The notes beneath the pieces were generated by a model. It saw nothing but the letters and a program-made list of their open reading frames with translations, had not been told where the DNA came from and made no database searches. 64,000 bases of DNA from Sinorhizobium glycinis (lineage in GTDB: Bacteria; Pseudomonadota; Alphaproteobacteria; Rhizobiales; Rhizobiaceae). Shown here piece by piece: positions 22,191-43,714 of the stretch; positions within the stretch are counted from its first letter, which is position 1, and each line of letters begins with the position of its first letter. Both the position numbers and the translations under genes were made by a program. Where the stretch lies: contig NZ_LPUX01000064.1 in NCBI RefSeq assembly GCF_001651865.1, positions 496,001 through 560,000 of the forward strand. The letters run 5' to 3'.

Positions 22191-22194
<4 letters not shown>

Positions 22195-23408: not shown

Positions 23409-23417
23409 GGACGTGGC

Positions 23418-25564: not shown

Positions 25565-25712
25565 CTGCCGAAAGCTCTGGATCGGGCTGGAAGAGTCGCA
25601 CGGTCGTGGCCGCTCATCCCGGCAGTTTGCGACGAAGGTCATGCGCATCCACCTGAAGCCTTCGCGGGAACCTACCTTTCTGCGCCCGGTTAGATGCGCA
25701 GAGGATCGACCA

Positions 25713-26786
25713 TTGGCGAAACTGGGTGTCCTGACATTCCACCGCTGCATCAATTACGGCTCGTTCTGGCAGACACGGTGCTTGATCGACGGGCTGCGTT
25801 GTCGCGGCACGGATCCGATCGTCCTCAACCACAGTTCGGATCGTGTCAGCCGGGCCGAATGGCGCTGCGCCTTGCAGCCCCTGCTGCCGGTCAGGACCTC
25901 GTGCGCGGACTCTCGGCTCTACGCCACGAAGATCAGAAAGTTCTTCAAGGCCATCGAAGCGCTTCCACTCAGCACAGCCTTTGCGCTGCATGATCCGACG
26001 GGCAGCGAGAACTGCGATCTGGTCATCGTCGGCAGCGACGAGGTCTGGAACCTGCGTCATCCCTGGTATGGCGGATGCCGGCTGTTCTACGGCGACAGCC
26101 TCGCCGCGCGGCGGGTCGTCTCCTATGCCGCGACATTCGGGAACCATCCCGCTGCAAACGGGCTCGACGGCTTTTGGGCGGAGGGACTGCGGAAATTCGA
26201 GAGCATTTCCGTGCGGGACGAGAACTCGAAGACAATTGTCGAGAATGCGCTTGGACGCGAGGCGACGCTTGTCCTCGACCCCTGCCTCCAGTTTCCCGAG
26301 GCAATCGCGCCTTACCAGCAGGTTTCGAGAAAGGTGCTCCCGCGCCGCTACGCCGCCGTTTATGGCCACTCGTTTCCGAACTGGTTCAAGGACTCGGTTC
26401 GCCGCTGGGCGCAATCACGGGCGGTCAGGCTTGTCAGTATCGGTTATCGAAACGATTGGGCCGATGAACAGTGGATCGATGCCGGGCCATACGATTTCGC
26501 CGGCTTCATTGCCGGAGCCGCGGCGGTGGTGACGAATTTCTTCCACGGCTGCGTTTTCTCCTTGCTCAACTCCAAGCCTTTTGCGTGCGTCTTGTCGGAT
26601 TACCGCTGGAACAAGATTTATGACCTGACTGAACTCTTGGGCGCAGAACGCCATGTCATCTCGAAGGAGGCGGGCGAGCAGGACTATGAGGCCGTTCTGG
26701 ACGACGCACCGGACGCGGCCATCGGAACCCGGCTGGCGCAGCATCGCCTCCGCTCACAGGCCTATTTGGATCATGTCCTTGACTGA
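25713..26786 (+). CDS. polysaccharide pyruvyl transferase family protein
   Basis: I choose the TTG at 25713 (LAKLGVLTFHRCINYGSFWQ), which has AGAGGA seven bases upstream and begins right at the family's first strand. An ATG 24 codons upstream has a poorly placed ribosome site. The protein is 357 aa. CDLVIVGSDEVWN, then YAATFG, ISVRDENSK, LVLDPCL and NFFHGCVFSLLNSKPF follow the PS_pyruv_trans pattern (DxVWN, RDxxS, HG). Such enzymes transfer pyruvate from PEP to make ketals on surface sugars. Its 3' end overlaps the FrhB-like gene by 14 bases. Confidence 0.8.
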   Translation: MAKLGVLTFHRCINYGSFWQTRCLIDGLRCRGTDPIVLNHSSDRVSRAEWRCALQPLLPVRTSCADSRLYATKIRKFFKAIEALPLSTAFALHDPTGSENCDLVIVGSDEVWNLRHPWYGGCRLFYGDSLAARRVVSYAATFGNHPAANGLDGFWAEGLRKFESISVRDENSKTIVENALGREATLVLDPCLQFPEAIAPYQQVSRKVLPRRYAAVYGHSFPNWFKDSVRRWAQSRAVRLVSIGYRNDWADEQWIDAGPYDFAGFIAGAAAVVTNFFHGCVFSLLNSKPFACVLSDYRWNKIYDLTELLGAERHVISKEAGEQDYEAVLDDAPDAAIGTRLAQHRLRSQAYLDHVLD

Positions 26787-28203
26787 TCTGCCGAAAGTCC
26801 CGCCTGACGATCCCAGGCTCACGCCGAGACAGATCGGGAAGTCCGGCTTGTGCATCGGCTGCGGAGCCTGCGTAGCGCGGTCAGGCGGCAGCAATGCAAC
26901 CATGCGGCTCGACCGCTATGGCCAGTTCAAGCCGAGCATCCCCGGCCGGTCGACGGACAAAGGCTTGCCAAACTTCGCTGAGCTCTGCCCCTTCTCCCCG
27001 CACGCCCGGAACGAGGACGAAATCGCCCGCGAGCGGTTCCCGTCAGCCAGGTACCGTGATCCGATGATCGGGCACTTCGAGACGGCTTATGTCGGCCATG
27101 TCCGCGAGGCGAGCTTTCGGGCGGACGGCAGCTCCGGCGGCATGGCGAGCTGGACGGCCGTCGAGCTCCTGGCAAGGAACATGGTCGACGGGGTCGCTCA
27201 TGTGGTACCCCGCTCTGACGGCGAGGACGATCGCCAACCTCTCTTCCGCTACAGGATTTCGCGAACGGTGGAAGACGTGCGCAGTGGCGCCAAATCGCGT
27301 TACTATCCGGTCGAGATGTCCGCGATCATCGACGAAATCAGGCGCCGCCCCGGGCGTTACGCGGTGGTCGGCATTCCCTGTTTCGTCAAAGCCGTACATC
27401 TCCTTCGCCGGCAGGAACCGGTCCTGCGCGAACGCATTGCCTTCACCCTCGGTCTCTTTTGCGGGCACATGAAAAGCGCTCGCTTCGTCGAGAGCTTCGC
27501 CTGGCAGTTGGAGGCAGGAATGGGAGAGGTTGCGGGTGTCGATTATCGGCTAAAGGATGCCGGCCGGCCGGCAAACTGGTACACCGCCCAGCTGCGGCTC
27601 AAGGACGGGAGTTCGAGGAGCAAGGACTGGTGGCATCTCGTCGACGGCGACTGGGGTGCCGGTTACTTTCAGAACTCGGCCTGCAACTTCTGCGATGACG
27701 TGGTCGCCGAGACGGCCGACATTTCCTTCGGCGACGCCTGGGTCGAGCCCTACTCATCCGATGGCCGGGGCACGAATGTCGTCGTCGTTCGCTCTCCTCT
27801 GCTGCAACGGCTCGTCGTTGATGCCGCAGACGAAGGACGGCTGGACCTCAGCGAGATCGACGGCGATTTCGTAGTGCGAACCCAAGCGGCCGGATTCAGG
27901 CAACGACGCGAGGGGCTCGCCTTCCGCCTCTCTTGGCTGCGTTCCGGCATAGGGCCGAACAAGCGCGTCGCTCCGAAACGGAGCGGCCTGCCGGCGCGCC
28001 GCATGCTGGTCTACTGGCTGCGCAGTTCGATCAGCGCTTGGAGCCATCGCGTTTTCTGGCTTGCCAGAGCGCTGCACATGCCACGCCTCTATACAAGCTG
28101 GGCTTCGACGATGCTCGCCCTTTACCAGGGCCTCACCTATTCGCGGGGCTGGGTTGGAAAACTCATCGATCGCATCGCCGGGCGGACTGACACCGGAGAC
28201 TGA
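26773..28203 (+). CDS. FrhB-like iron-sulfur flavoprotein (coenzyme F420 hydrogenase beta family)
   Basis: The start MSLTDLPKV at 26773 gives 476 aa. The N-terminal cluster CIGCGAC, with a fourth Cys in ELCPFSPH, is followed by the FrhB core: SSGGMASWTAVELL, YAVVGIPCFVKAVHLL, LFCGHMKSARFVESF and the C-terminal ACNFCDDVVAETADISFGDA. This family is regularly encoded beside pyruvyl transferases in polysaccharide loci, where its reaction is unknown; reduction of a sugar-linked group by a flavin has been proposed. Residues after about 400 form a basic, amphipathic tail that may attach to membranes. The gene runs 67 bases into the 3' end of the convergent glycosidase gene. Confidence 0.78.
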   Translation: MSLTDLPKVPPDDPRLTPRQIGKSGLCIGCGACVARSGGSNATMRLDRYGQFKPSIPGRSTDKGLPNFAELCPFSPHARNEDEIARERFPSARYRDPMIGHFETAYVGHVREASFRADGSSGGMASWTAVELLARNMVDGVAHVVPRSDGEDDRQPLFRYRISRTVEDVRSGAKSRYYPVEMSAIIDEIRRRPGRYAVVGIPCFVKAVHLLRRQEPVLRERIAFTLGLFCGHMKSARFVESFAWQLEAGMGEVAGVDYRLKDAGRPANWYTAQLRLKDGSSRSKDWWHLVDGDWGAGYFQNSACNFCDDVVAETADISFGDAWVEPYSSDGRGTNVVVVRSPLLQRLVVDAADEGRLDLSEIDGDFVVRTQAAGFRQRREGLAFRLSWLRSGIGPNKRVAPKRSGLPARRMLVYWLRSSISAWSHRVFWLARALHMPRLYTSWASTMLALYQGLTYSRGWVGKLIDRIAGRTDTGD

Positions 28204-29114
28204 TGTCGGGCGCCGACCGACGGCGCGCGAGGTGCATAGCGCTCGGTCATCTCGGCACAGAACGCGGCAAACTCTTCCGGCACGGTCGGCGCGCTCGTAT
28301 GGTGCGGGGCGAGGCCCCTGTGTTCCGGGGTGAAGCAGAAGGTGACGGTGACGTCGAAATCCTCGAGCGCCTGCATCTGGCGGTCGAACCATGCCAGGGC
28401 GCCGGGCCGGAAGCGGTCGGCCCAGGAGAGGCCGGTGCGCAGATAGGTGACCCCGAGGCGCTTCATCCATCGGACGGCATCGTCAAGCCGCGGGTCCTCG
28501 AAATGGAACCATTGCACGAGCCCGATTTCCGGCGTGTGCCGGGCAAATTCCTCGAGCGCCAGCTTCGGCGCGCCGTCCTCCCGCAGAAGGCCCATGTAGA
28601 AATGCCGGTAATAGGAGGAGCCCTCCGCCTCCCTGTGCCGGGTGGTCGCCGGCCAGGCGCGCGGCAGGTCGTAGAGGCTGTACCATTGTATCCGATCGAC
28701 CCTGCCCTTGAGCAGTTCGGCGGTTCTTTTCAGCCCCCAAAGCTGAACCTCCTCGGCCCCGAAAGTCGACACGCCGACCTCGCTTATCCAGATCGGCAGA
28801 TCGGTCACGCTGCGCAGCTCCTCGATCTTCTGCGGCCATTCGTGGATCTGCCAGAGGTTCCAGTCGAGCGGGAATCCGTGGGCGGCCACGGCGTCGACGT
28901 GATCGAGCACGCCGTAAGTCTTCATAAGGTCAAGGAAGCCGGGGTCGATCGGCGAAATGCCGCCGAGCACCCTTGTAAGACGGGGGTTCACATCCTGGAT
29001 CGCATCTGCGGCGAGTTTCGCCATATTGGCAAAGCAACTCCAATCCGGATCGATTTCCGGATCCCAATGCGACTTGTTGTTCGGCTCGTTCCAGATCATT
29101 GCGGCTTCGATCAT
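28137..29114 (-). CDS. GH-like TIM-barrel glycosidase (beta-xylosidase-like), apparently circularly permuted
   Basis: ATG at 29114 has GGAGGT five bases upstream, and the protein is 325 aa. It opens with AAMIWNEPNNKSHW, the acid/base strand (strand 4) of clan-A glycosidases, then has the nucleophile strand LPIWISEVGVSTFG near residue 110. Only after residue 230 do sequences appear that normally form strands 1-3 (MKRLGVTYLRTGLSWADRF, ALEDFDVTVTFCFTPEH, EEFAAFCAEMTERYA). The barrel therefore looks permuted, not truncated. There is no signal peptide. The last about 22 residues overlap the FrhB-like gene on the other strand and may be non-essential. It is the third gene of the inositol-phosphate synthase operon. 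Confidence 0.72.
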   Translation of the reverse strand: MIEAAMIWNEPNNKSHWDPEIDPDWSCFANMAKLAADAIQDVNPRLTRVLGGISPIDPGFLDLMKTYGVLDHVDAVAAHGFPLDWNLWQIHEWPQKIEELRSVTDLPIWISEVGVSTFGAEEVQLWGLKRTAELLKGRVDRIQWYSLYDLPRAWPATTRHREAEGSSYYRHFYMGLLREDGAPKLALEEFARHTPEIGLVQWFHFEDPRLDDAVRWMKRLGVTYLRTGLSWADRFRPGALAWFDRQMQALEDFDVTVTFCFTPEHRGLAPHHTSAPTVPEEFAAFCAEMTERYAPRAPSVGARHQSPVSVRPAMRSMSFPTQPRE

Positions 29115-29181
29115 CAGTACCTCCGAACCGCCGGGAACCGGCGAGTTTCTACGAACCGCGCCATCGTGATGCCCGGCGCGC

Positions 29182-29781
29182 TCACGACGGGTCTTCGTTC
29201 AATGTCAGTATCTTCGCCCCCCAGTCGCCCATCACGACGACGGAGATGGAGGCGGGAGCAATCTCGAAGCGGGGCCAGGCGTCCGCCGAAAGGCCGAGCA
29301 CATGGCAGACCAGGGACTTGATGACGTCGGCATGACTGACAAGGACGATCTTTCGGTCACCCTTCCGCCGGCCGAGCGTCTCGACGAGCGCCAGGACGCG
29401 CGATTGAACCTCCAGCATCGTTTCGCCGCCGGGGGCGCGAACCTGGCTTCTCGTGCAATTCCACTGCCGCCAAAGCGGGTCGGTGTTCAGGACTTCGAAG
29501 CTCTTGCCGGACCAGGTGCCGAAGTCGACCTCGTCGAGCGCTTCGGCCGTTTCGACCTCCGAGATTTCGGATGCATTGGCGATCGCCGCGGCCGTCTCCC
29601 GGGTGCGCTTGCGCGGGCTGGCATAGATCGCGCCGATGTCCTCGCGGGCGAGACGCGCCGCCAGACGCTTGGCCTGTTCCAGGCCGGCCGGCCCGAGCGG
29701 AACGTCTCCCGTTCGCCCCGCCAGAAAATTGCCGATCTTGTCATGGGCGGCGTGCCGCACCAGAAGGAAAGTGGTCGTCAC
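29182..29781 (-). CDS. histidine phosphatase superfamily (phosphoglycerate-mutase-like)
   Basis: A GTG start at 29781 overlaps the stop of the upstream inositol-phosphate synthase gene (GTGA), giving 199 aa. The catalytic motif [11 protein letters not shown] is at residues 5-15. [11 protein letters not shown], the phosphate-pocket Glu in [13 protein letters not shown], and the second His in [13 protein letters not shown] complete the active site. Translational coupling to Ino1 suggests it removes the phosphate from inositol-3-phosphate or from a later phosphorylated intermediate, such as a phosphoribosylated product of the nearby PRTase-like protein (inference). Confidence 0.82.
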
Positions 29782-30881
29782 TCGGCCGCTCCCCGGAGTG
29801 CGTCGGTATCGCCCGCGATGAATTCTTCGAGCCGGGTGCGCGCCTCGGCATCGGTGAATTGCCGGGGCGGTGATTTCATGAAGTAGCTCGATGGGGCGAT
29901 CAGCGGACCGCCGAGGCCGCGGTCCATGCCGAGCTTGGCACATCGCACCGCGTCGATGACCACACCGGCGGAATTCGGCGAATCCCAGACCTCCAGCTTC
30001 AGTTCGATATTGAGCGGAACGCTGCCGAAGGTGGTCCCCTCAACGCGAATGTAGGCGAACTTGCGGTCGGCGAGCCAGGGCACGTGGTCGCTCGGCCCGA
30101 CATGGATGTCTCCGGGAGCAAGGGGCATGTCCATTTGGCTGACGACCGACTGCGTCTTCGAGATCTTCTTCGATTCCAGCCGCTCCCGTTCGAGCATGTT
30201 GAGGAAGTCGGTATTGCCGCCGAAGTTGAGCTGATAGGTCCGGTCGATCCGGACGCCGCGGTCGCGGAAGAGAGTGGCGAGCAGCCGATGGACGATGGTG
30301 GCGCCGACCTGGCTCTTGATGTCGTCGCCGATCAGCGGCAGGCCGCGCTCGGCGAATTTCCTCTGCCAGGACCGGTCCGAGGCGATGAAAACGGGGATGC
30401 AGTTGACGAAACCGCAGCCGGCGGCAAGCGCCTGCTCTGCATACCATCGCGTCGCCACTTCCGAACCGACCGGGAGATAGGAGACCAGCACATCCGTTTC
30501 GCTTTGCCGCAGCACATCGGCGACATCGACGGCGGGGGCCTCCGATTCTTCGATTTCCTCTCGCAGGTATCGGCCGATCCCGTCGAGCGTTCTGCCGCGC
30601 TCGACTGTGACCCCGGTCGATGCGACATCTGCGAAACGGAAGGTGTTGTTCGGAGGAGCATAGATCGCTTCGGCAACGTCGCGGCCGACCTTCGAAGCGG
30701 CAACGTCGAAGGCGGCGGACACTTCGATATCGCTTATATGGTAGCCGCCGAGACTGACATGCATCAGTCCCGGCACGGGTTCGTCTTCCCTGGCGTCGCG
30801 ATAGAAAGTCAGCCCCTGGACGAGCGAGGAGGCGCAATTACCGATTCCGACCAGACCGATTCGAATGGATTTCGATCGCAT
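29778..30881 (-). CDS. ino1: inositol-3-phosphate synthase (actinobacterial/archaeal type)
   Basis: I choose [15 protein letters not shown] at 30881, with GGGAG at a good distance; an ATG seven codons upstream is also in frame. The protein is 367 aa. The NAD motif [16 protein letters not shown], then [28 protein letters not shown], the [18 protein letters not shown] region and [11 protein letters not shown] are hallmark Ino1 sequences, including the catalytic lysines. It converts glucose-6-phosphate to inositol-3-phosphate. Ino1 is uncommon in Proteobacteria, and here it heads a three-gene leftward operon with a phosphatase and a glycosidase inside a glycosyltransferase locus. Confidence 0.9.
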
Positions 30882-31011
30882 CTCCGCACTCCCGCAATGC
30901 ATCTACAATGCTCGCCAAACCCGCGCGCCGAGGAATGGTTCCCTTTCTCGGTTGCGCACGCATCCCGCGGATCGAAATGAGGTGCTGCGCGTTCAACGCG
31001 AATGAAGAGCG

Positions 31012-32793
31012 ATGGGCGGAGCGATGCTGATCTACGGTGACCCGACGCGCAGCGTGCGGGCCGACATTCTGTGCGAGACGATTGCCGCGCGGTTGCGGGC
31101 GCTCGAAGTCCGGCCACCCGGCCTCGAACGGCACGCCGCGCTGGTCGGCATCTTCATCAAGGCGGGCGAGCTGGTGCAGGGGCTGTCGGATTTCGAGCTC
31201 GAGACCGTCGGGGCGGACGAGCTGTCGGCAAGGCGCGAAAAGTCTGGCGTTCTGCTCCTCGATCTGGCGCGGCTCGTCGCCGAATCCTGGTCTCGGGGGT
31301 TCTCCGGTCGCCTGGCTCCGCCAGATCGTGTTTGGCCGCTGCTCCAGGAGCTTCGGGCGCCATTGCCGCTGTCGATCAAGGAAGGGGAGGGCTATGCCTT
31401 CTACGCGCTCTATCCCGAAAGCTACATCGAAGCGGCAAGGCGCTCGGGGCTGGGTGCGAACACCGTGGTGATCGGCATTCGCTCGATCGGCGCCAGCCTT
31501 TCGGCGGCGGTTGCCGCTGCGATCGGGGCGGGCGCGCCGGTCACGGTGCGGCCGGTCGGCCATCCATTCCGGAGAAAAATCCACGTCGGCCCGCAGCTTT
31601 CGCAACGGCTTCTCAAGGACAGGACGGCCGATTTCGCGATCGTCGACGAGGGGCCGGGCCTTTCCGGCAGCTCCTTCGGAGGCGTGGCGGATTGGCTGGA
31701 GGCGAATGGCGTCAGCGAAAGCCGAATCCACTTCTTTCCCGGCCACAGTGGTGACCTGGGACCAGAAGCCAGCCAGGATCACCGCAAACGCTGGGCAGCG
31801 CGCCCCCGCCAGGTCGTCGAGCTGGATGAGCTTGTCGTTGCAGCGGGTCCATCGCCGCGCTCGCTCGCCGCCTGGGTGAGCGAGCTTGTCGGGCCCCTAT
31901 CGCGGCCACTCCAGGAGATTTCCGGCGGAGGCTGGCGGAGCATGCTTCCGCGCAGTCACGAATCCTGGCCGCCCGCCGATCCCAGGTTCGAGCGGCGAAA
32001 ATTCCTGGCGCACACGGCCGATGGTCCATGGCTCGTGAAATTCGCGGGTATCGGCGACGTCGGGCAGCGCAAGCTCGAAAAGGCACGCCTGTTGGCGGAG
32101 GCCGGGTTCACGCCACCCGTTGCCGGGCTGTGCCATGGTTTCCTGGTCCAGAAGTGGGTAGCGGCGACTCAACCTGGGCGAAGCGACGTTCACCGGGCGG
32201 ATTTCAGGGAACATCTCGGACGGTACTTGGCATTTCGGGCTCGCCGTCTGCCGCCGCCGGCGACCCACGGCGCCTCAATGGCAACGCTGTGCGAAATGGC
32301 CATTACCAATACGGGAGAAGCGCTTGGCGAATCCGTTGCGGCCCAGCTGCGGCCACTGCTGTCCAAGGCTTTGCAGCACGATTTTCCGATCATGCCCGTC
32401 GATACCGACAACCGCCTTCACCGATGGGAGTGGCTGGCCGGCGAGCGCGGCTTCCTCAAGGCCGACGCACTCGATCACTGTGCCGCCCACGACCTTGTCG
32501 GTTCTCAGGATGTCGCCTGGGATGTCGCGGGCGCCGTCGTCGAGTTCGACCTCACGCCAGAGGAAGGGGCTGCTCTCCAAGGCATTGTATCCGACGGCAG
32601 CTCGCGTGCCGTCGACGCGGAACTGCAGGAGATCTTCGAGCTTTGCTACCTGGCCTTCCAGCTCGGGCTCTGGACCTCCGCCAAGACTGGCGCCGGCTCG
32701 GACGAGGTCCCGAGGCTGGACGCGGTCGCGGCACGCTATGCGAACCTCTTGCTCCGGCGCATCGAAGGGTACGCCGGATCAATGTGCCGGTGA
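31012..32793 (+). CDS. PRTase-like domain fused to a kinase-like (APH-fold-like) domain, unknown function
   Basis: The protein is 593 aa (or 589 from MLIYGDPTRS, which may be the true start). Residues about 125-250 resemble type I phosphoribosyltransferases: VVIGIRSIGASLSAAVAAAI, then the PRPP-loop pattern FAIVDEGPGLSGSSF at 208-222. Residues about 330-510 resemble aminoglycoside-phosphotransferase-type kinases: WLVKFAGIGDVGQRKLEKA with a candidate ATP Lys, LCHGFLVQKWV, and HDLVGSQDVAWDVAGA with an Asp of the DFG type. I do not recognise a named family for this fusion. It starts divergently from ino1 (about 130 bp) and ends 11 bp from the convergent Gfo/Idh gene. A role in making or moving a phosphoribosyl group on an inositol-based product is a hypothesis. 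Confidence 0.65.
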   Translation: MGGAMLIYGDPTRSVRADILCETIAARLRALEVRPPGLERHAALVGIFIKAGELVQGLSDFELETVGADELSARREKSGVLLLDLARLVAESWSRGFSGRLAPPDRVWPLLQELRAPLPLSIKEGEGYAFYALYPESYIEAARRSGLGANTVVIGIRSIGASLSAAVAAAIGAGAPVTVRPVGHPFRRKIHVGPQLSQRLLKDRTADFAIVDEGPGLSGSSFGGVADWLEANGVSESRIHFFPGHSGDLGPEASQDHRKRWAARPRQVVELDELVVAAGPSPRSLAAWVSELVGPLSRPLQEISGGGWRSMLPRSHESWPPADPRFERRKFLAHTADGPWLVKFAGIGDVGQRKLEKARLLAEAGFTPPVAGLCHGFLVQKWVAATQPGRSDVHRADFREHLGRYLAFRARRLPPPATHGASMATLCEMAITNTGEALGESVAAQLRPLLSKALQHDFPIMPVDTDNRLHRWEWLAGERGFLKADALDHCAAHDLVGSQDVAWDVAGAVVEFDLTPEEGAALQGIVSDGSSRAVDAELQEIFELCYLAFQLGLWTSAKTGAGSDEVPRLDAVAARYANLLLRRIEGYAGSMCR

Positions 32794-32804
32794 GGCCGTC
32801 GCCG

Positions 32805-33830
32805 TTATCTTCCGTAAATCCTGTCGAGGACATCGGCGACGGTGACGAAGCGATCATTCTCCGGATCGAAGCGCTCGCCTGCGGCAAGGCGCTCCGCCCA
32901 GCGGGCCGCGGCGCGCCCGCCCCAGGCGTCCGGGGGAAGCGCGAGAACCTCCCGCTGCGTCCCGCGATACCGTTCGGCCGTAAAGTCGAGATAGGATCCG
33001 TCGACATTCCTGAAGCTGGCGCCGCCCTCGGTGCCGTAGAAGTCCGCGCTGATCACCGCGTCGCATCCCGCCTGCAGGTGCCATGAGCAGGCGACGCGGG
33101 CGACCACCCCGTTTGCCAGTTCGAGCGTCGCGGCGGCATAGTCCTCGACGACATCGCCGTCGCGGCGGATGGGAACACCCTTGTAAAACAGCCTGCTTTC
33201 AACCCGAGCCACCTTCGGGAATCCGAGCACCCAGAGGAGGAGGTCTACCAGGTGTACGCCGAGATCGATGACGCAGCCGCCGCCGGAAAGCGCCTTGTCG
33301 TAGAACCACGGCTTGCTCGGCCCATAGGCGTTGTGAAAGGTGAGATCGACCGCGAAAACTGTGCCCAGTTCTCCCGACGTGATCAGATCACGTATCCGCT
33401 GCATCCCGGCCGTGTAACGATAGGAGAGATCGACTCCCAGCAGCCTGTCGGCGTGCTGCGCCGCCTCGACGACCGCTACCGTCTCGTCCCGCGTGCGGCC
33501 GAGCGGCTTCTGGCAAAAGACCGCCAGGCCTTGTTCCAGGGCCACGATCGATTGCGCGGCGTGGAGTGCGCTTGGAGAGGCGATGACGATGCCGTCGAGT
33601 TCCTCGTCGAGCAGCGCTTCAAGCGAATTGACGACTGCGGCCTCGGGCGTCAGCTCGCGCGCCGCCGCCGCCATTTCCGGTGTGGGGTCGAATATCGCAG
33701 CCGTTTCGACGGCGCCGGTCTCGACGATCGCCCGCATGCGGTGCAGGCCGATCCGCCCCACTCCGAGGAAGCCGACGCGTGGGCGGCTGGCGGCGTTCAG
33801 GTTCGTTGCAAGCGGGGTCGCGTCACTCAT
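32805..33830 (-). CDS. Gfo/Idh/MocA-family oxidoreductase (inositol-dehydrogenase-like)
   Basis: The protein is 341 aa. The Rossmann motif RVGFLGVGRIGLHRM, the dinucleotide-side SALHAAQSIVALEQGL and the catalytic region CQKPLGRT are present, with GGGCVIDLGVHLVDLLLW supplying the Asp/His pair. The family's usual EKP is QKP here; the Lys is kept. This group includes myo-inositol and scyllo-inositol dehydrogenases, which fits an Ino1 gene nearby. The start overlaps the 3' end of the upstream MDR dehydrogenase gene by eight bases. Confidence 0.8.
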   Translation of the reverse strand: MSDATPLATNLNAASRPRVGFLGVGRIGLHRMRAIVETGAVETAAIFDPTPEMAAAARELTPEAAVVNSLEALLDEELDGIVIASPSALHAAQSIVALEQGLAVFCQKPLGRTRDETVAVVEAAQHADRLLGVDLSYRYTAGMQRIRDLITSGELGTVFAVDLTFHNAYGPSKPWFYDKALSGGGCVIDLGVHLVDLLLWVLGFPKVARVESRLFYKGVPIRRDGDVVEDYAAATLELANGVVARVACSWHLQAGCDAVISADFYGTEGGASFRNVDGSYLDFTAERYRGTQREVLALPPDAWGGRAAARWAERLAAGERFDPENDRFVTVADVLDRIYGR

Positions 33831-34815
33831 CGTAGATCACCAGTGCCTTGATGAAGCCTTCGGGACGATCGCGCGTCATATCCAGTGCCGCGCCGAGCTC
33901 TTCGAGCCGGAACCTGTGCGTATAGAGCGGTGACGGCGACAGGCGCCCGGCGGCCGTCGCCTCGATCGCCTCACGGATGCCGCGCATGTAGATCGCCGGA
34001 TCGCGCTCATGCGCGTTGATCACGTCGAGGCCGCGCCAGTTCCAGAGCTGCATGTTCACCTGGCGCGGGCCGTCCTGGTGATAACCCGCAATGACGAGCC
34101 GGCCGCGCTCCTTGGTCAGTTCGCCGGCAAGGTCGAGAGGCCACTGCTTGCCGACCGCCTCGATGACGCAATCGCAGAACGCGCCGGAGGTCAGTCGCTT
34201 CACCCTGTCGATGATCTGCCAATGATCATCCATGGCGATCGTTTCGTTCGCGCCGGCGCTTTTTGCCGCAGCGAGCGAGGAAGGCCTGCGCGATATGGCG
34301 ATGACCCGTGCGCCGGCCGCGCTCGCAAGCTGCGTCAAAAGGATGCCGAGAAAGCCGATGCCGATGATCGCCACGGTTTCGCCGGGCCCGATGGCGCTGC
34401 GCCGGAAGATGTTGAAGGCGCAGCCGAGCGGCTCCCCGGGGAACGGCTCGTTCGCGAGTGCGGCGGGCAGGGGGGCGATGGCGGCCTGATCCGCAATGTC
34501 GTGCGTCGCATAGGCGTGATAGGTGAGCGCCGCAACGCGGTCGCCCGCCGCGAATCCATGCACATCTTCGCCCACAGCATCGATGATCCCCCAGCCCTCG
34601 TGGCCGAGCCCGCCGGGTTCGGTCGGGAACCGCATCCATTCCGGGCCTGCCCAGGGTACGAGGTTGGAGGCGCAGACGCCGCAGCCTTGCAGCTTGATCC
34701 GCACCTGTCCGGGACCCGGCTCGGGCAGCGGCAATGTATCGACGCGCAGTTCGCCCGGCCCGGTAACGATCGCCGCCGACATGGTGCCTGTCCTCGACTG
34801 TGCCCTGATATTCAT
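33823..34815 (-). CDS. medium-chain (MDR) alcohol dehydrogenase-like protein
   Basis: I choose MNIRAQSRTG at 34815 because GGGAGG lies just upstream; the open frame extends 28 codons further. The protein is 330 aa. The active-site region GCGVCASNLVPW and GLGHEGWGIIDAVGEDVHGF matches MDR enzymes, and the NAD motif is IGIGFLGILLTQLA. The four-Cys structural zinc lobe is absent. Distant relatives oxidise cyclitols (for example NeoA-type 2-deoxy-scyllo-inosamine dehydrogenase) as well as simple alcohols. It is encoded just ahead of, and overlapping, the inositol-dehydrogenase-like gene. Confidence 0.78.
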   Translation of the reverse strand: MNIRAQSRTGTMSAAIVTGPGELRVDTLPLPEPGPGQVRIKLQGCGVCASNLVPWAGPEWMRFPTEPGGLGHEGWGIIDAVGEDVHGFAAGDRVAALTYHAYATHDIADQAAIAPLPAALANEPFPGEPLGCAFNIFRRSAIGPGETVAIIGIGFLGILLTQLASAAGARVIAISRRPSSLAAAKSAGANETIAMDDHWQIIDRVKRLTSGAFCDCVIEAVGKQWPLDLAGELTKERGRLVIAGYHQDGPRQVNMQLWNWRGLDVINAHERDPAIYMRGIREAIEATAAGRLSPSPLYTHRFRLEELGAALDMTRDRPEGFIKALVIYDE

Positions 34816-35163
34816 GCCTGCCTCCCGCTGCTTGACATGGAACATGCCGGCGGCTCGGCGCGAAGCGGGGATATCGAGCGAAAGAGAATCCCCCGTCATG
34901 CCCTCGCCGCGGCGGCTGGAAAAATGACGCTCGGCCGCCTGGAGCCCATAACTTCATGTTCGGGGTTTTGTTCCTGCCGGGCGATTGTCATGGAACCTCA
35001 TGCGGAGAGCGAGGTTTGTAGCTTGGGCGTGCGTGGGCGAGCAGCAGCTCAATCATCAGCTATGTAGATGTTCAAAGAAGAAGTCATAGATGAAGGAACC
35101 TTTGCTGCAGACGTTTGTTGGAGCTTTGTCTCTATCTCTGATTGGTCATAGTCGGGAGCGTTT
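34816..35163. promoter_or_regulatory. 348-bp divergent intergenic region before the sugar-epimerase operon
   Basis: The right half (about 35030-35160) is clearly AT-richer than the surroundings, as expected for promoters serving the rightward eight-gene glycosyltransferase run and the leftward dehydrogenase pair. No convincing ORF, repeat or terminator was found. GGGAG at 35153-35157 is the ribosome site of the epimerase gene. Confidence 0.45.
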
Positions 35164-36270
35164 ATGACAAAGGTACTTGTCACCGGCGGCTGTGGATTCA
35201 TTGGGCGGCACGTGGTCGAGGAACTTGTCTTAAGGAATTACGAGCTGCGCGTGCTGGACTCGTTCAACGAGCAGGTCCATGCGGACGCGCAGATCACGTT
35301 GCCGCGGAACGTCGACATGCGTCGGGGCGACATTCGCGATGCAAATGCGGTCAAGGATGCGCTGGCGGAGATCGACTGCGTCGTCCATCTCGCCGCAGAG
35401 GTGGGTGTCGGCCAGTCGATGTACGAGATCGCCCGCTATGTGGGCGTCAACGATCTCGGGACGGCCGTGCTGCTCGAGGCGATGATCGAGAGCCCAGTCC
35501 GCCGCATTGTCGTCGCATCGTCGATGAGCGTCTATGGCGAAGGTCTTTACGAGACGACGGCGGGCGAGCGCATGCCAAGTGCGAGACGCTCGCCTGCCCA
35601 TGTCCAGGCCGGATCATGGGATCCGCTCGGTCCGAACGGAGAGAGCCTCAGGCCCGTTGCCACGGACGAGCACAAGCCGGTCGACCTCGCTTCCATCTAC
35701 GCTCTGACGAAGTACGCCCAGGAGCGTCAGGTGTTGATCTTCGGCGAAGCCTACGGCAGGGAAGCGGTAGCGCTCCGTCTCTTCAACGTGTTCGGAGCAG
35801 GGCAGGCGCTTTCCAATCCCTATACCGGCGTGCTTGCGAATTTCGCGTCCCGGCTTGCCAATGGGCAAGCGCCGATGGTGTTCGAGGACGGCAGGCAGCG
35901 GCGCGATTTCGTTCACGTCGGCGACGTGGCGCGCGCCTTCCGGCAGGCGCTCGAGCAACCGCAGGCGGCGGGGCACGTCATCAATGTGGGCAGTGGTCAC
36001 GCCTACGCCATCGCAGATGTCGCTTCGCTGCTGGCGGAAGCAATGGGTGTGCCTGAACTCGAGCCCGAGATCATGAACAAGGCCCGCTCCGGCGATATCC
36101 GCAATTGCTTCGCCGATATCTCCAAGGCCCGCGACCTGCTCGGATTCCATCCAGCACACAGGCTCGAACACTCGCTTGAGGACTTCGCGCACTGGGTGCT
36201 CAGCGTCGGCGCCATCGACCGCGGCGCCGAAATGAAGCGGCATCTGGAAACGCGGGGGCTCGTTCGATGA
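35164..36270 (+). CDS. NAD-dependent sugar epimerase/dehydratase (extended SDR)
   Basis: The protein is 368 aa. VLVTGGCGFIGRHVVEEL is the NAD motif, VVHLAAEVGVGQSMYEI and ASSMSVYGEG precede the YALTKYAQE Tyr/Lys pair near residue 180, and FNVFGAGQALSNPYTGVLA and DFVHVGDVARAF complete the extended-SDR pattern. It resembles nucleotide-sugar 4-epimerases acting on UDP- or dTDP-sugars. It is the first gene of a run in which most genes overlap by ATGA. Confidence 0.82.
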   Translation: MTKVLVTGGCGFIGRHVVEELVLRNYELRVLDSFNEQVHADAQITLPRNVDMRRGDIRDANAVKDALAEIDCVVHLAAEVGVGQSMYEIARYVGVNDLGTAVLLEAMIESPVRRIVVASSMSVYGEGLYETTAGERMPSARRSPAHVQAGSWDPLGPNGESLRPVATDEHKPVDLASIYALTKYAQERQVLIFGEAYGREAVALRLFNVFGAGQALSNPYTGVLANFASRLANGQAPMVFEDGRQRRDFVHVGDVARAFRQALEQPQAAGHVINVGSGHAYAIADVASLLAEAMGVPELEPEIMNKARSGDIRNCFADISKARDLLGFHPAHRLEHSLEDFAHWVLSVGAIDRGAEMKRHLETRGLVR

Positions 36271-37394
36271 GCGCCAGGCCGATTGACAGGCATGAGGGCG
36301 TGCCGGCGCCCGCTCTTTCCGGGAAAACGGCGGCAATTCTCGTCGTGGGCGGCAGCGGGTTCCTCGGCTGCAATCTCGCCGACAGCTTCCTACGCGACGG
36401 TGAGAAGGTGATCGTCCTCGACAATCTGAGCCGCCCGGGCGTCGAGCGGAACCTGGAGTGGCTGGTCGAAAACCATGGCAGTGCCGTCCAGGCGGAAATT
36501 GCCGACATCCGCGACCTCTCCGCAATCGAGCCGGTCTTCAAGGAGGCAAAGGCGATCTTCCATTTCGCGGCGCAGACGGCGGTGACGACCAGCCTTCTGC
36601 AGCCGGTCGACGACTTCGAAACCAACGCGCGCGGTACGCTGAACGTCCTCGAAGCGGCCAGACGTGCCGGGCGCCGCGCGCCCGTGATCTTCGCCAGCAC
36701 GAACAAGGTCTATGGCGCGCTGACGGGTCTGGAGATGGACGAGGCTGGCGATCGCTACCTCCCGGCCGATGCCGTAACGCGCAGATATGGCGTCGGAGAG
36801 GCGCAGCCGCTCGATTTCTGCACGCCCTATGGCTGCTCGAAAGGCGTCGCGGATCAGTACGTGCTCGACTATGCCAAGTCCTTCGGGCTTGCTACGGCCG
36901 TGCTCCGGATGAGCTGCGTCTATGGTCCGCGCCAGTTCGGCACGGAGGATCAGGGATGGGTCGCGCATTTCCTCATTCGCGCCCTCGCGGGTGAGCCGAT
37001 CTCGATCTATGGCGACGGCAAGCAGGTCCGCGATATTCTCCATGTCAGCGACGCGGTGGCCGCCTACAGGGCGCTCCTGGCGTCGATCGACCGCCTTGCC
37101 GGACGCGCCTTCAATCTCGGAGGCGGCCCTGGCAATGCGGTGAGCGTCGCCGAGGTACTGCACGAAATCGAACGCGTGACGGCGCGCCGGGTGAGGAGGG
37201 TGAAGAGCGACTGGCGTGCCGGCGACCAGCTGTACTTCGTCGCCGACACGCGCGCGCTCATGGACGCGCTCGGCTGGAGAGCCCGCACCGGCTGGCGTGC
37301 CGGCTTGCGCGACCTGCATGCCTGGCTTCTGCAGGATTGGGCGGACGTCAACAAGGCTCCTTTTCAGCGCCGGCCGCGGAGGATCACCGCATGA
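36267..37394 (+). CDS. CDP-paratose-2-epimerase-like NAD-dependent epimerase
   Basis: The protein is 375 aa. ILVVGGSGFLGCNLADSFL, then HFAAQTAVTTSLLQPVDDFE, IFASTNKVYGAL and the catalytic TPYGCSKGVADQYVLDYAKS, followed by MSCVYGPRQFG, closely follow the CDP-tyvelose/paratose 2-epimerase (RfbE) subgroup of extended SDRs. The exact nucleotide sugar is unknown. It overlaps both the previous gene and the following glycosyltransferase gene by four bases. Confidence 0.82.
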   Translation: MSARPIDRHEGVPAPALSGKTAAILVVGGSGFLGCNLADSFLRDGEKVIVLDNLSRPGVERNLEWLVENHGSAVQAEIADIRDLSAIEPVFKEAKAIFHFAAQTAVTTSLLQPVDDFETNARGTLNVLEAARRAGRRAPVIFASTNKVYGALTGLEMDEAGDRYLPADAVTRRYGVGEAQPLDFCTPYGCSKGVADQYVLDYAKSFGLATAVLRMSCVYGPRQFGTEDQGWVAHFLIRALAGEPISIYGDGKQVRDILHVSDAVAAYRALLASIDRLAGRAFNLGGGPGNAVSVAEVLHEIERVTARRVRRVKSDWRAGDQLYFVADTRALMDALGWRARTGWRAGLRDLHAWLLQDWADVNKAPFQRRPRRITA

Positions 37395-38533
37395 TCGCCC
37401 GCGCCATATCCGCCCCGCACCCCTCCGCCCATGACGGACGGCTGCCGCGGCGCATCCTGATGAGCGTCGATGCGGTCGGCGGCATCTGGCGCTATGCGAT
37501 GGATCTTGCCGAAGTCCTCCGCAAGGCGGGCGTCGAAACGGTCTTCGCTGGCTTCGGTCCCGCGCCGTCCGAGGCGCAGCGTCGAGAAGCCGCCCGCATC
37601 GGCCGGCTCGAATGGCTCGTTGCCCCCCTCGATTGGATGGTCGACGACGAAAGCGAATTGACAGCCGTCGCGGATGGTCTTGGCGAACTGTCGCTCCGGC
37701 ACTCGGTCGATCTCATGCATCTGAACCTGCCGTCACAGGCGGTCGGTCTTGACATGGAAAAGCCTGTCGTCGCGGTCTCCCACTCATGCGTCGTCACCTG
37801 GTTCGAGGCCGTGCGCGCCGGCGGCTTGCCGGAGCGGTGGTTCTGGCAGAAGCGGCGCAATCGGCTGGGTTTCGATCGTGCCGGCGTGGTTCTGGCGCCG
37901 AGCCGAAGCCACGCGGCCGCACTTGAGCGCTGCTATGGGCCGATCGACAATCTTGCCGTGGTCTACAACGCCAGCGCCGACCAGGCGGCGACGCCCCCCA
38001 AGGAGAATCTCGTCTTTGCCGCGGGGCGCTGGTGGGACGAGGGCAAGAACGGCGCGGTGCTGGACAGGGCTGCCGCGTTGATCCGCTGGCCGGTGATCAT
38101 GGCGGGCGCGTGCAACGGGCCGAACGGCCAGCACCTCCACATTGCGCAGGCCGATCACAGGGGCGAGCTCAGCCACGAGCGGGCGATGGCGCTGACGTCG
38201 AGCGCCGCGATTGTCGTCTCGCCGTCGGTCTACGAACCGTTCGGCCTGGCTCCCCTCGAGGCGGCCGGCGTCGGGGCGGCGTTGGTGCTCGCCGATATCG
38301 GCACCTATCGGGAGCTCTGGGACGGCGTCGCCCGGTTCTTCGATCCGCACGATGCGGAGGCATTGGCGAGCGCGGTCAACGACTTGACGCAGGATGCGCG
38401 GCTTCGCGCAGAGCTTGGTCGGCAGGCCCGTTTGCGGGCGCGATCCTTCACCGTCGAAGCCCAGCGCGACGGGATGCTCGATGTCTACGGTCAGGCGATG
38501 CGCGGATCCACCCGATTGACGGCAGCGGAGTGA
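37391..38533 (+). CDS. glycosyltransferase family 4-like
   Basis: The start MIARAISAPH at 37391 overlaps the epimerase stop by ATGA; the protein is 380 aa. The N-terminal domain carries DAVGGIWRYAMDLAEVL, the usual GT4 opening (a glycine-rich loop before the first helix). The C-terminal GT-B domain has VFAAGRWWDEGKN and the nucleotide-sugar motif VVSPSVYEPFGLAPLEAAGV, equivalent to EPFGLxxLEA. It is a cytosolic or peripheral enzyme. The coupled order with two epimerases suggests it uses their product. Confidence 0.85.
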   Translation: MIARAISAPHPSAHDGRLPRRILMSVDAVGGIWRYAMDLAEVLRKAGVETVFAGFGPAPSEAQRREAARIGRLEWLVAPLDWMVDDESELTAVADGLGELSLRHSVDLMHLNLPSQAVGLDMEKPVVAVSHSCVVTWFEAVRAGGLPERWFWQKRRNRLGFDRAGVVLAPSRSHAAALERCYGPIDNLAVVYNASADQAATPPKENLVFAAGRWWDEGKNGAVLDRAAALIRWPVIMAGACNGPNGQHLHIAQADHRGELSHERAMALTSSAAIVVSPSVYEPFGLAPLEAAGVGAALVLADIGTYRELWDGVARFFDPHDAEALASAVNDLTQDARLRAELGRQARLRARSFTVEAQRDGMLDVYGQAMRGSTRLTAAE

Positions 38534-38536
38534 GCG

Positions 38537-39670
38537 ATGCGGTTCCTCTTCTACACCCAATCCCTCGTTTCCGACTGGAACCATGGAAATGCGCATTTCC
38601 TGCGCGGCGTCATGCGCGAACTCGTCGGCCGCGGACACCGGGCGACGGCTCTCGAACCGCGCGACTCCTGGAGCCGCCTGAACCTGATCGCGGACCAGGG
38701 CGTCGGGCCGATCGCCGCCTTCCGCAAGCACTTTCCGGAATTGCACGCGGAGAGCTACGACGCGAACTTCGATCACGAGGCAGCGGTAAGCGATGCCGAT
38801 GTGGTTGTCGTGCATGAATGGACGGAGCCGGCCTTGATCGCCCGGCTCGGGCGCATCCGTCGCAATGGCGGCCGTTTCACGCTCGCCTTTCACGACACGC
38901 ATCATCGGTCCGTCTCTCAGCGGCGCGAGATCGCCCGGCTCGATCTGACCGGTTACGATTTCGTCCTGGCTTTCGGCGAGGCGCTCCGCGAGCGTTATCT
39001 CAGTGCCGGCTGGGGCAAGCATGTGTTCACCTGGCACGAGGCGGCCGATACCTCGCTGTTTCAGCCGATGCCGGAGGTGGAGAAGACCGGCGATCTTGTC
39101 TGGATCGGCAATTGGGGCGACGACGAGCGCAGTGCGGAGATCGCCGCCTTCCTCGTCGAGCCGGCGCGACGACTGAAGCTGAGGACGACGGTGCGGGGCG
39201 TCCGCTATCCGGGCGCCGCCCTGAAGGCGTTGCGGGCGGCGGGGATCTGCTATGGCGGCTGGGTCGCAAACGCCGCCGTTCCCCGGACCTTCGCCGCGCA
39301 TCGCGCGACCATGCACATTCCGCGGCGACCTTATGTCGAGGCGCTGCCCGGCATCCCGACCATCCGCGTGTTCGAGGCGCTTGCCTGCGGCATTCCGCTG
39401 ATCTCGGCGCCCTGGAACGATGCGGAAGGCCTTTTTCGCGCCGGCAAGGATTTCCTCTTCGCCCGCAGCGGAGAAGAGATGACGCGCCTCCTGCGCCAGG
39501 TGCTTTCCGACCCGGCCTTTGCCGAAGAAATGACGGCGAGCGGATTGGAGACGATCCGGCGACGCCACACCTGTGCGCATCGCGTCGACGAGCTTCTCCG
39601 CATCGTCGCTGCCTATGGACCGAGACAGGCTGTGGGCGATAGCGCCACGACCAAGGAGGCAGCGATATGA
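38537..39670 (+). CDS. CgeB-like glycosyltransferase 1 of 3
   Basis: The protein is 377 aa. The opening MRFLFYTQSLVSDWNHGNAH and the C-terminal block RVFEALACGIPLISAPWNDA with EEMTRLLRQVLSD are typical of the CgeB/GT-B group (named after a Bacillus spore-coat maturation protein). The middle strand DLVWIGNWGDDERSAEI begins the nucleotide-binding domain. Three bases separate it from the GT4 gene, and its stop overlaps the next start. Confidence 0.82.
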   Translation: MRFLFYTQSLVSDWNHGNAHFLRGVMRELVGRGHRATALEPRDSWSRLNLIADQGVGPIAAFRKHFPELHAESYDANFDHEAAVSDADVVVVHEWTEPALIARLGRIRRNGGRFTLAFHDTHHRSVSQRREIARLDLTGYDFVLAFGEALRERYLSAGWGKHVFTWHEAADTSLFQPMPEVEKTGDLVWIGNWGDDERSAEIAAFLVEPARRLKLRTTVRGVRYPGAALKALRAAGICYGGWVANAAVPRTFAAHRATMHIPRRPYVEALPGIPTIRVFEALACGIPLISAPWNDAEGLFRAGKDFLFARSGEEMTRLLRQVLSDPAFAEEMTASGLETIRRRHTCAHRVDELLRIVAAYGPRQAVGDSATTKEAAI

Positions 39671-40755
39671 GGATTGCCTTTTACGGATCGAGCCTCGTTT
39701 CGGCCTATTGGAACGGCGCGGCAACCTATTACCGCGGACTGCTCAGGGCGTTGGCCGCGCGGGGTTACGAAATCACCTTCTATGAACCGGACGTCTATGA
39801 TCGGCAGAAGCACCGCGACATCGATTCGCCGGATTGGTGCAGCGTCGTCGTTTACGAAGGGACTGTCGCGGCGCTGAAGCGGGCCGCTGCCTCGGCGGCC
39901 GAGGCCGACGTCGTCATCAAGGCGAGCGGCGTCGGCTTCGAGGACGATCTGCTGCTCGTAGAGGTGATGGCTGCGGCACGTCCGGCGGCGCTGAAAATCT
40001 TCTGGGATGTCGACGCGCCCGCCACGCTTCAGGAGCTCCGGGCGGCCCCCGATCATCCGCTGCGGCGCGCACTCTCTTCGCTCGATCTCGTCTTGACCTA
40101 TGGCGGCGGCGATCCGGTTGTCCGCTCCTATCGGGCGCTCGGCGCCTGCCAATGCGTGCCGATCTATAACGCCGTCGACCCGGAGACGCATCATCGCGTC
40201 TCCGAAGACCCGCGCTTTGCCGCCGAACTTGCCTTCCTCGGCAATCGCCTGCCGGATCGCGAGGCGCGGGTGGAAGCGTTCTTCCTCGCGCCCGCGGCCC
40301 GACTCGGCAACCGGCGATTCCTGCTCGGCGGGGCCGGCTGGCATGACAAGCCGCTGCCCGCGAATGTTGCCTATATCGGCCACGTTCCGACGGCCGATCA
40401 CAATGCCTTCAACGCGACGCCCCACGCGGTCCTGAACATTTCGCGCGCCAGCATGGCGGAAAACGGCTTCTCGCCGGCAACCCGCGTCTTCGAGGCGGCC
40501 GGCGCCGGCGCCTGTCTGATCACCGACGCATGGGAAGGCATCGAGCTCTTCCTGAAGCCGGGGGAGGAGGTACTGGTCGCCCGCGACGGCCAGGACGTGG
40601 TCGAACTGATGCGGAAGCTGACGCCTGCAAGTGCGCAGCAGATCGGAGAGCGGGCGCTCGCCCGCGTCCTCGGCGAACATACCTACGCGCATCGGGCTGC
40701 GGAAGTGGACCGCGTCTTTCGCGATCGGTCGAGCCGTGTGGAGGCAGCCGAATGA
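39667..40755 (+). CDS. CgeB-like glycosyltransferase 2 of 3
   Basis: The protein is 362 aa. MRIAFYGSSLVSAYWNGAAT mirrors the opening of the previous gene product, and RVFEAAGAGACLITDAWEGI with LARVLGEHTYAHRAAEV mirrors its C-terminus, so this is a diverged tandem paralogue. ELAFLGNRLPDREARVEAFF marks the second Rossmann domain. It overlaps both neighbours by ATGA. Acceptor and donor are unknown. Confidence 0.82.
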   Translation: MRIAFYGSSLVSAYWNGAATYYRGLLRALAARGYEITFYEPDVYDRQKHRDIDSPDWCSVVVYEGTVAALKRAAASAAEADVVIKASGVGFEDDLLLVEVMAAARPAALKIFWDVDAPATLQELRAAPDHPLRRALSSLDLVLTYGGGDPVVRSYRALGACQCVPIYNAVDPETHHRVSEDPRFAAELAFLGNRLPDREARVEAFFLAPAARLGNRRFLLGGAGWHDKPLPANVAYIGHVPTADHNAFNATPHAVLNISRASMAENGFSPATRVFEAAGAGACLITDAWEGIELFLKPGEEVLVARDGQDVVELMRKLTPASAQQIGERALARVLGEHTYAHRAAEVDRVFRDRSSRVEAAE

Positions 40756-42931: not shown

Positions 42932-43714
42932 ATGGTTCAGGAGACGAAATACCGAACGGCTATCGAGAATGAGATCGCGGCACTCGGCCCCTGGTTCCAC
43001 AATATGCGGATCGCGGGCGTCGAAACGTCTCCCGATCACTTCCTCGGCGATTATCCAGCGGTGAAATGGGAGAGGTTCAAGCATGTCGTGCCGGAGGACC
43101 TAGATGGCCGGAGCGTGCTCGACATCGGCTGCAATGCCGGCTTCTACTCGCAGGAAATGAAGCGCCGCAACGCCGGCCGGGTGCTCGGCATCGACTCCGA
43201 CCCGCGCTATCTGCGGCAAGCGAAATTCGCCGCCGAACAGGCCGGAATGCAGGTCGAGTTCAGGCTGATGTCCGTTTACGACGTGGCACAGCTTCGCGAC
43301 AGGTTCGACCTGGTCATCTTCATGGGCGTTCTTTACCATCTGCGCCATCCGCTCCTGGCGCTCGATTTGCTCTACGAGCACGTGGTCGATGACAAGATGC
43401 TCTTCCAGTGCATGCAGCGCGGAGCCAATTCGGTCTCGCCGCTCGAGGCTAACTACGATTTCCGTGAATGGGGAATTTTCGATCGTCCGGACTATCCCAA
43501 GCTGTTCTTCGTCGAAGACCGGTTCGCCGACGATCCCACCAACTGGTTCATTCCGAACCGAGCCGGTGTCGAGGCGATGCTTCGCAGTTCCGGTTTCGTC
43601 ATCGAAGCCAACCCGGAGCGGGAGGTCTATCTGGTGCGGAAAGGGGAACGGCCCTTCATGAGCGAGCCAACGCCGCTTGTCGGCTCCCCGGGCCGCTACT
43701 GCTTGCTTCCTTGA
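42932..43714 (+). CDS. CmoB-like SAM-dependent methyltransferase of the glycosyltransferase cluster
   Basis: ATG at 42932 lies two bases after the previous stop; the protein is 260 aa. GPWFHNMRIAGVETSPDHF, YPAVKWERF, VLDIGCNAGFYSQEMKRR, then VLYHLRHPLLALDLL and WFIPNRAGVEAMLRSSGF resemble tRNA cmo5U methyltransferase CmoB. CmoB-like proteins encoded next to glycosyltransferases form a separate group thought to modify small molecules or glycans. Position as last gene of the run suggests a methyl cap on the sugar product (inference). Confidence 0.82.
   Translation: MVQETKYRTAIENEIAALGPWFHNMRIAGVETSPDHFLGDYPAVKWERFKHVVPEDLDGRSVLDIGCNAGFYSQEMKRRNAGRVLGIDSDPRYLRQAKFAAEQAGMQVEFRLMSVYDVAQLRDRFDLVIFMGVLYHLRHPLLALDLLYEHVVDDKMLFQCMQRGANSVSPLEANYDFREWGIFDRPDYPKLFFVEDRFADDPTNWFIPNRAGVEAMLRSSGFVIEANPEREVYLVRKGERPFMSEPTPLVGSPGRYCLLP

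Follow-up and report, generated by a model that had tools for sequence, protein, structure and literature searches.

A 64,000-nucleotide stretch of Sinorhizobium glycinis DNA (contig NZ_LPUX01000064.1, positions 496,001 to 560,000), here called the window, carries a gene cluster that we read as the source of a small, probably cytosolic, inositol-containing glycoside, made under control of the general stress response (EcfG/RpoE2). We give this reading a probability of about one half, and a stress-induced inositol-containing glycoside is the likeliest product. The direct basis is the gene content of the cluster, its conservation, the pattern of promoter-like sites, two lineages of inositol-3-phosphate synthase (Ino1), a circular permutation in a glycosidase-like protein and two model folds. 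How the cluster is regulated, each of its reactions, the product and what that product does are inferred from these. The cluster spans about 25641-43714 of the window, from a PF04230 pyruvyl transferase-like gene to the end of a TIGR04290 methyltransferase gene. An initial annotation had described the middle part (28137-34815), and all the genes it named are present with open frames in the arrangement it gave. The genes are as follows.

25641..26786, + strand: polysaccharide pyruvyl transferase-like protein (PF04230, 114 bits), a facultative module; its true start is perhaps near 25714, past a promoter-like site
26737..28203, + strand: FrhB/FdhB-like protein (PF04432, 114 bits), partner of the pyruvyl transferase
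28137..29114, - strand: glycosidase-like barrel, 325 residues, circularly permuted and PslG-like (clan GH-A type)
29182..29781, - strand: histidine phosphatase, branch 1 (PF00300, 166 bits), GTG start
29778..30902, - strand: inositol-3-phosphate synthase Ino1 (PF01658, 117.1 bits; TIGR03450, 548.4 bits); translation may begin at the inner ATG near 30881, preceded by GGAG
31012..32793, + strand: fusion of a phosphoribosyltransferase (PRTase)-like and a choline-kinase-like part, probably an accessory gene
32805..33830, - strand: Gfo/Idh/MocA oxidoreductase of the MDR+Gfo module, the alternative to a TIGR04295-type radical SAM protein
33823..34899, - strand: MDR zinc-type dehydrogenase; a start near 34815 or 34782 is more likely, given a shorter orthologue
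35164..36270, + strand: SDR1, NAD-dependent nucleoside diphosphate (NDP)-sugar epimerase/dehydratase
36267..37394, + strand: SDR2, CDP-tyvelose 2-epimerase-like NDP-sugar epimerase (PDB 9rl0, E 6.4e-81; 1orr, 3.4e-75)
37391..38533, + strand: GT1, GT4-type glycosyltransferase (PF13439, PF00534)
38537..39670, + strand: GT2, Glyco_trans_1_2 glycosyltransferase (PF13524, 127 bits)
39667..40755, + strand: GT3, Glyco_trans_1_2 glycosyltransferase (PF13524, 138 bits)
40752..41870, + strand: GT4, Glyco_trans_1_2 glycosyltransferase (PF13524, 132 bits)
41889..42929, + strand: UDP-glucuronate decarboxylase-type SDR (UXS; PF01370), as its counterparts in other clusters are annotated
42932..43714, + strand: TIGR04290-family methyltransferase (374.3 bits, above the curated cut-off of 300)

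In the proposed pathway, Ino1 would convert glucose 6-phosphate to inositol 3-phosphate, and the histidine phosphatase would remove the phosphate either from inositol phosphate itself or, in a mycothiol-like manner, after the GT4-type enzyme has added the first sugar. SDR1, SDR2 (2-epimerase type) and the UDP-glucuronate decarboxylase-type protein would supply unusual NDP-sugars, which the four glycosyltransferases would add. The TIGR04290 methyltransferase and the facultative modules (MDR+Gfo or B12-radical SAM; pyruvyl transferase+FrhB) would decorate the product, and the permuted PslG-like barrel would trim it or transfer sugars on it. The mycothiol pathway starts with Ino1, MshA and a phosphatase, and its phosphate is removed after the first sugar is attached. 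The window resembles this start, as it contains a GT4-type glycosyltransferase, a phosphatase and an Ino1 that shares 64% identity with the protein of the actinomycete Nonomuraea. It differs in having several more sugar genes and no MshB, MshC or MshD-type Pfam match among the cluster proteins scanned (the rest of the genome was not searched).

The gene set is not a product of chance, because it recurs in many genomes. We compared the window proteins by tblastn with 29 loci. One is the window's own, 13 come from genomes anchored on TIGR04290, and two are S. meliloti plasmids. With the PRTase-kinase fusion as anchor we added six plasmid loci and three genome contigs, and with Ino1 as anchor four further plasmid loci. 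Since loci were chosen by these anchors, the number of them that have PRTase-kinase or Ino1 cannot be read as a frequency; the counts over the genome samples can. Outside the 29 loci stand seven of ten genome-contig loci (near relatives or short), a Comamonadaceae locus (L045), a Sphingomonas parapaucimobilis Ino1 without the cluster and without an adjoining annotated histidine phosphatase (L134), and a Paraburkholderia locus that has no annotation (L135). The cluster, in shuffled order, is found in S. meliloti pSymB, Ensifer adhaerens, Rhizobium, Azospirillum, Roseomonas, Sphingobium and Paracoccus. It normally comprises SDR1, SDR2, four glycosyltransferases, the UDP-glucuronate decarboxylase type, the TIGR04290 methyltransferase and the glycosidase-like gene, usually with Ino1 and the histidine phosphatase. 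Three Azospirillum clusters (L041, L130, L131) are without the UDP-glucuronate decarboxylase type, and L041 is also without SDR2; loci L027, L030 and L130 stop within the cluster. Within 18 kb on each side, Rhizobium sp. NXC24 (L043) has just the glycosidase-like gene, Ino1, the phosphatase, PRTase-kinase and the pyruvyl module, and L040 has PRTase-kinase with no other cluster gene. Among 398 genomes of the phylum, TIGR04290 occurs in 14, and 12 of these carry Ino1, which is found in 32 of the 398.

The cluster is related to the TIGR04290 and TIGR04295 ('Rta_06860') families, which are known as protein models. The window methyltransferase passes TIGR04290, and 12 of the 29 loci have a homologue of the annotated Azospirillum brasilense TIGR04295 protein, a B12-radical SAM type that is replaced by MDR+Gfo in Sinorhizobium. 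The MDR+Gfo pair is found in 14 loci and never together with the radical SAM protein; L034, L040 and L043 have neither. The frames of the pair overlap by 8 bases in the window, as the initial annotation had noted. It had labelled them cyclitol-type dehydrogenases. We do not accept cyclitol-specific dehydrogenases as proven, because both proteins are far under the relevant cut-offs (112.5 against 355 bits for IolG TIGR04380, inositol 2-dehydrogenase; 90.9 against 450 bits for IolM NF041097, scyllo-inosose 3-dehydrogenase) and one pair occurs without Ino1.

Ino1 passes the PF01658 gathering score (117.1 against 27 bits) and stays under the cut-off of 638 bits for the mycothiol-type INO1 equivalog TIGR03450, which is reached in none of the 398 phylum genomes. 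The phosphatase belongs to superfamily PF00300 and is under the cut-offs for alpha-ribazole phosphatase (120.5 against 162.9 bits) and MSMEG_4193 phosphomutase (151.3 against 203.85 bits). The GTG at which it starts shares bases with the TGA stop of Ino1 (GTGA), so that the geometry of the translational coupling proposed earlier is real. The phosphatase is found in all 26 Ino1-bearing cluster loci, whether PRTase-kinase is present or not, and is missing from the two clusters that lack Ino1; four genomes have it where the PRTase-like gene was not found. The simplest reading is that the phosphatase acts on the inositol phosphate part. The initial annotation had paired it with a transferase dependent on phosphoribosyl pyrophosphate (PRPP), and this pairing gives way to one with Ino1.

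The Ino1 proteins of the cluster fall into two lineages. In a tree of 45 sequences (26 from clusters and 19 from elsewhere; two duplicate rows were dropped, and two of 32 Ino1 matches had no fetched locus), 22 cluster sequences form one clade and four (G227, G377, Sphingobium and Paracoccus) lie in another, which also contains the S. parapaucimobilis Ino1 from outside the cluster. The hypothesis that all cluster Ino1 sequences form one clade was rejected (p-AU 0.00213; 43 rows, two long-branch rows excluded). The tree suggests that ino1 was recruited twice, that it was replaced in one lineage, or that the cluster was lost around it. Double recruitment or replacement would make little sense if the pathway had no need of inositol phosphate. 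As a side observation, the S. parapaucimobilis Ino1 (L134, 17144-19811) lies between a CDP-alcohol phosphatidyltransferase and an NTP transferase, a different inositol context.

The cluster is probably controlled by the general stress response, judging from putative promoter sites. Of the six GGAAC-N17-GTT sites in the 64 kb, five lie a short distance before genes of the cluster, namely ino1, MDR, SDR1 (two sites) and the pyruvyl transferase:

25667..25691, + strand: EcfG/RpoE2-like site (GGAAC-N17-GTT) before the pyruvyl transferase
30918..30942, - strand: EcfG/RpoE2-like site upstream of ino1
34950..34974, - strand: EcfG/RpoE2-like site upstream of MDR-Gfo
34992..35016, + strand: EcfG/RpoE2-like site upstream of SDR1, distal
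35095..35119, + strand: EcfG/RpoE2-like site upstream of SDR1, proximal

Over the 29 loci, we scored a relaxed motif (GGAAC-N17/18-GTT). Relaxed sites were detected upstream of 44 of 78 leading genes. Of the 26 phosphatase genes 2 have one, and of the 278 other genes, which include PRTase-kinase, none. Among the leading genes, sites precede Ino1 in 17 of 26 cases, SDR1 in 16 of 27, MDR in 9 of 14 and the pyruvyl transferase in 2 of 11, and in 17 loci the ino1 site lies 5-49 bases before the projected start. For comparison, 40 scrambled versions of the motif averaged 0.35 matches at these leading genes and never gave more than 2. The published EcfG/RpoE2 motif is GGAAC-N16-CGTT (PMC3892343), and mapped RpoE2 promoters are given in PMC6180224; we took GGAAC-N16-17-CGTT as the promoter expected of a regulon member.

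The glycosidase-like gene lies inside the interval of the initial annotation, was unmentioned there and is conserved. Homologues are annotated elsewhere as 'beta-xylosidase' or 'glycosyl hydrolase'. The predicted fold is an eight-strand barrel with a Glu after strands 4 and 7, as expected of a PslG-like protein of clan GH-A, and Glu10 in NEPN and Glu112 in SEVG are invariant in 10 sequences. The order of the strands, 4-8 and then 1-3, departs from the canonical 1-8. In native order the match to PslG is partial (E 0.019). When the halves are swapped back, the sequence aligns with PslG almost end to end (E 1.5e-7), with both catalytic-type glutamates kept. By these observations the protein is a circularly permuted PslG-like barrel of clan GH-A type, differing from PslG in its permutation and in its length of ~300 residues. 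We note that both of our model folds, this one and that of PRTase-kinase, are predicted at moderate confidence.

Profile and structure searches with this protein were less informative. It does not reach the GH39 PF01229 cut-off of 26 bits (12.4 native, 12.7 with halves swapped). Structure searches with the permuted barrel gave generic TIM barrels at the top, and PslG was not among the best 50 matches listed, as expected of a sequential aligner, which would penalise a permuted relative. Neither the C-terminal half alone against the PDB nor the canonical domains of G409 and G359 against the PDB and/or Pfam gave anything useful. The permuted or canonical type of the glycosidase follows the presence of Ino1 in all 14 TIGR04290 genomes. 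In the two Ino1-less clusters, a canonical-order glycosidase-like domain is naturally fused to the SDR2 epimerase (L084, ~8400-10500; L077, ~5900-7900, - strand).

These findings bear on the possibility that Ino1 and the phosphatase do no more than provide free inositol, whether as a compatible solute or for some other purpose, next to unrelated glycosyltransferases. The stress-type sites would suit such a role, as would the salt-responsive inositol transport and catabolism genes of Ensifer aridi, the subject of the inositol and RpoE2 work in PMC8877191. However, the glycosyltransferase cluster is the same around Ino1 proteins of two lineages and the glycosidase type tracks Ino1, and we regard this explanation as decidedly improbable.

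PslG is a GH39-like glycosidase encoded in the Psl cluster and acts in the Psl polysaccharide system. Its likeness to the permuted barrel raises the question of whether the cluster makes or decorates a cell-surface polysaccharide, such as a stress-induced capsule or exopolysaccharide, with export genes elsewhere. The pyruvyl transferase+FrhB pair, present in 11 of the 29 loci, would fit such a product together with a PslG-like glycosidase, but the pair is absent from all 12 radical-SAM loci. By product names, no flippase, polymerase, chain-length protein or lipid-linked initiating transferase is found in 8 annotated clusters, the gene tables of which are incomplete. As annotated in four of these clusters, the glycosidase-like proteins start at their catalytic strand and leave no room for a signal peptide, though several open frames have start codons further upstream. 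A surface polysaccharide is, in our view, rather unlikely.

A third explanation, that of the initial annotation, gives the central role to the PRTase-kinase fusion. In the butirosin pathway, a PRPP transferase and a phosphatase act in sequence on this logic; here, the PRTase domain would move phosphoribose from PRPP to inositol or another cyclitol, the histidine phosphatase would dephosphorylate the product, and glycosylation would follow. In the window, too, a cyclitol-forming enzyme has a phosphatase and a candidate PRPP enzyme as neighbours. The fusion protein has no Pfam or NCBIfam match at E 0.01, in contrast to LicA-type choline kinases, APH kinases and type I PRTases, and sequence searches of Pfam, NCBIfam and the PDB gave only weak matches (uL14, E 0.0093). 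Single homologues matched DUF6989 (E 0.04) and, in 1 of 10, Choline_kinase (E 0.11). An AF2 model from an alignment of 11 sequences (pLDDT 73.5) has a choline kinase/APH fold over residues 272-588; its Foldseek matches to PRTases are weak (E 0.03-0.09), and the VIA rows cover residues 270-590 only. The model thus gives structural support to the earlier label, firm for the kinase half and weak to moderate for the PRTase half. The motif DEGPG-x-SGSSF is invariant in 10 homologues, and the loop DEGPGLSGSS deviates from the usual PRPP-loop pattern. Compared by hhalign with the genome's own PRTases and APH kinases, the two halves scored no better than decoys.

The distribution of PRTase-kinase points in two directions. 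It is carried by 8 of the 398 sampled genomes, all 8 with the cluster, and occurs in the same 26 of 33 Sinorhizobium genomes as TIGR04290. On the other hand, it is positioned away from the cluster in some genomes, was not found in 4 of 12 Ino1-cluster genomes and never has an EcfG/RpoE2-like site upstream (0 of 18). Because of these last two results, phosphoribosylation of inositol is probably not the core of the pathway. With the phosphatase following Ino1 instead, unlike in butirosin, we consider the butirosin-like route quite unlikely. Gene content ties PRTase-kinase to the cluster, but the gene is not required for it and is probably accessory. Azospirillum ramasamyi, which has PRTase-kinase without a nearby Ino1, was rejected as a counter-example, because its Ino1 cluster, like that of A. 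lipoferum, is on a different plasmid. The Comamonadaceae match (L045) was also set aside; it covers only 13% of the protein, and product names show no gene of the cluster around it.

Several points weigh against a stress-controlled inositol glycoside. The number of motif matches in the window shows no excess (6 against 4.05 expected; 24 of 100 shuffles reach 6), so the promoter case rests on position and conservation. The strict GGAAC-N16-CGTT motif has no match in the window, and the sites keep GTT and rarely the C before it. No site was detected in L041 (Azospirillum) or L042 (Roseomonas), the cluster genes of G263 and G227 lack one, and the site of G377 is solely before the phosphatase. Across the loci overall, the motif is ~4 times commoner than scrambles (196 against 46). 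The split into leading and other genes was chosen after a first look, which used a wider search range and also picked up two sites that overlap GT2 starts. The 29 loci are not independent (five are of one genus and two are S. meliloti) and were partly picked by the genes counted. Two of the 14 TIGR04290 clusters (G359, G409) are without Ino1, with no match in those genomes at E 1e-60; inositol may therefore be missing from some versions of the product. The product may also be exported by machinery encoded elsewhere.

A fuller version of the stress-glycoside reading, which we hold as tentative and on the whole doubtful, would have Alphaproteobacteria make an undescribed stress-protective inositol glycoside under EcfG/RpoE2, with ino1 from two lineages, trimming or transglycosylation by the permuted GH-A-type enzyme, and a PRTase-choline-kinase fusion of a new enzyme family adding phosphoribosyl or phosphate in many strains. 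If true, the alphaproteobacterial general stress response would have a conserved small-molecule output, and the actinobacterial-like Ino1 on rhizobial megaplasmids such as pSymB would be accounted for. It would also provide a natural circular permutation in a clan GH-A-type barrel, with a canonical, fused relative surviving in sister clusters.

The gene set is conserved and apparently unstudied, and our searches found no paper on the cluster. The initial annotation was probably correct in suspecting an inositol glycoside pathway not described before. Literature searches for TIGR04290, TIGR04295 or Rta_06860, and for a link between RpoE2 and SMb202 tags, found no paper. A search for S. meliloti tags SMb20227 and SMb20229-SMb20251 gave nothing on the cluster, a weak miss, as the tags were guessed from one anchor. 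Nothing on it appeared among the papers listed for Sinorhizobium inositol-3-phosphate synthase, the RpoE2 regulon, EcfG/general stress response with Ino1, or clan GH-A permutation. SMb20231 is an ABC sugar-binding protein in PMC12542648 and probably belongs to a neighbouring operon. The EcfG targets of Sphingomonas melonis in PMC6599016 include glycosyltransferases and a Zn-dehydrogenase, which could not be tied to the cluster. The terms sought did not turn up in PMC7083833 and PMC4814048.

Some neighbouring genes were also recorded. A DUF1003 gene, perhaps a member of the same stress regulon, adjoins the cluster in S. meliloti (L038, 7820-8371), E. adhaerens (L039, 12168-12722), A. brasilense (L041, 5280-5882) and Paracoccus yeei (L133, 19047-19625). 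On Sphingobium yanoikuyae pKN1 (L132, 2335-25181), the genes that flank the cluster encode a sigma-70 family factor with NrsF, a peroxiredoxin, a manganese catalase and a DUF892 protein, a stress-gene neighbourhood, and an ADP-ribose pyrophosphatase gene (21136-21702) directly follows Gfo/Idh. In the window, a glucose/sorbosone dehydrogenase (GSDH)-like protein (44417-45415; 36 bits) lies downstream of the methyltransferase and is found in 1 of the 29 loci, the window's own. On the other side, translations indicate two tandem enolase-superfamily sugar-acid dehydratase-like genes (22191-24605) after a peptide-type ABC transporter ATPase frame (20023-22194), which are probably an unrelated catabolic operon.

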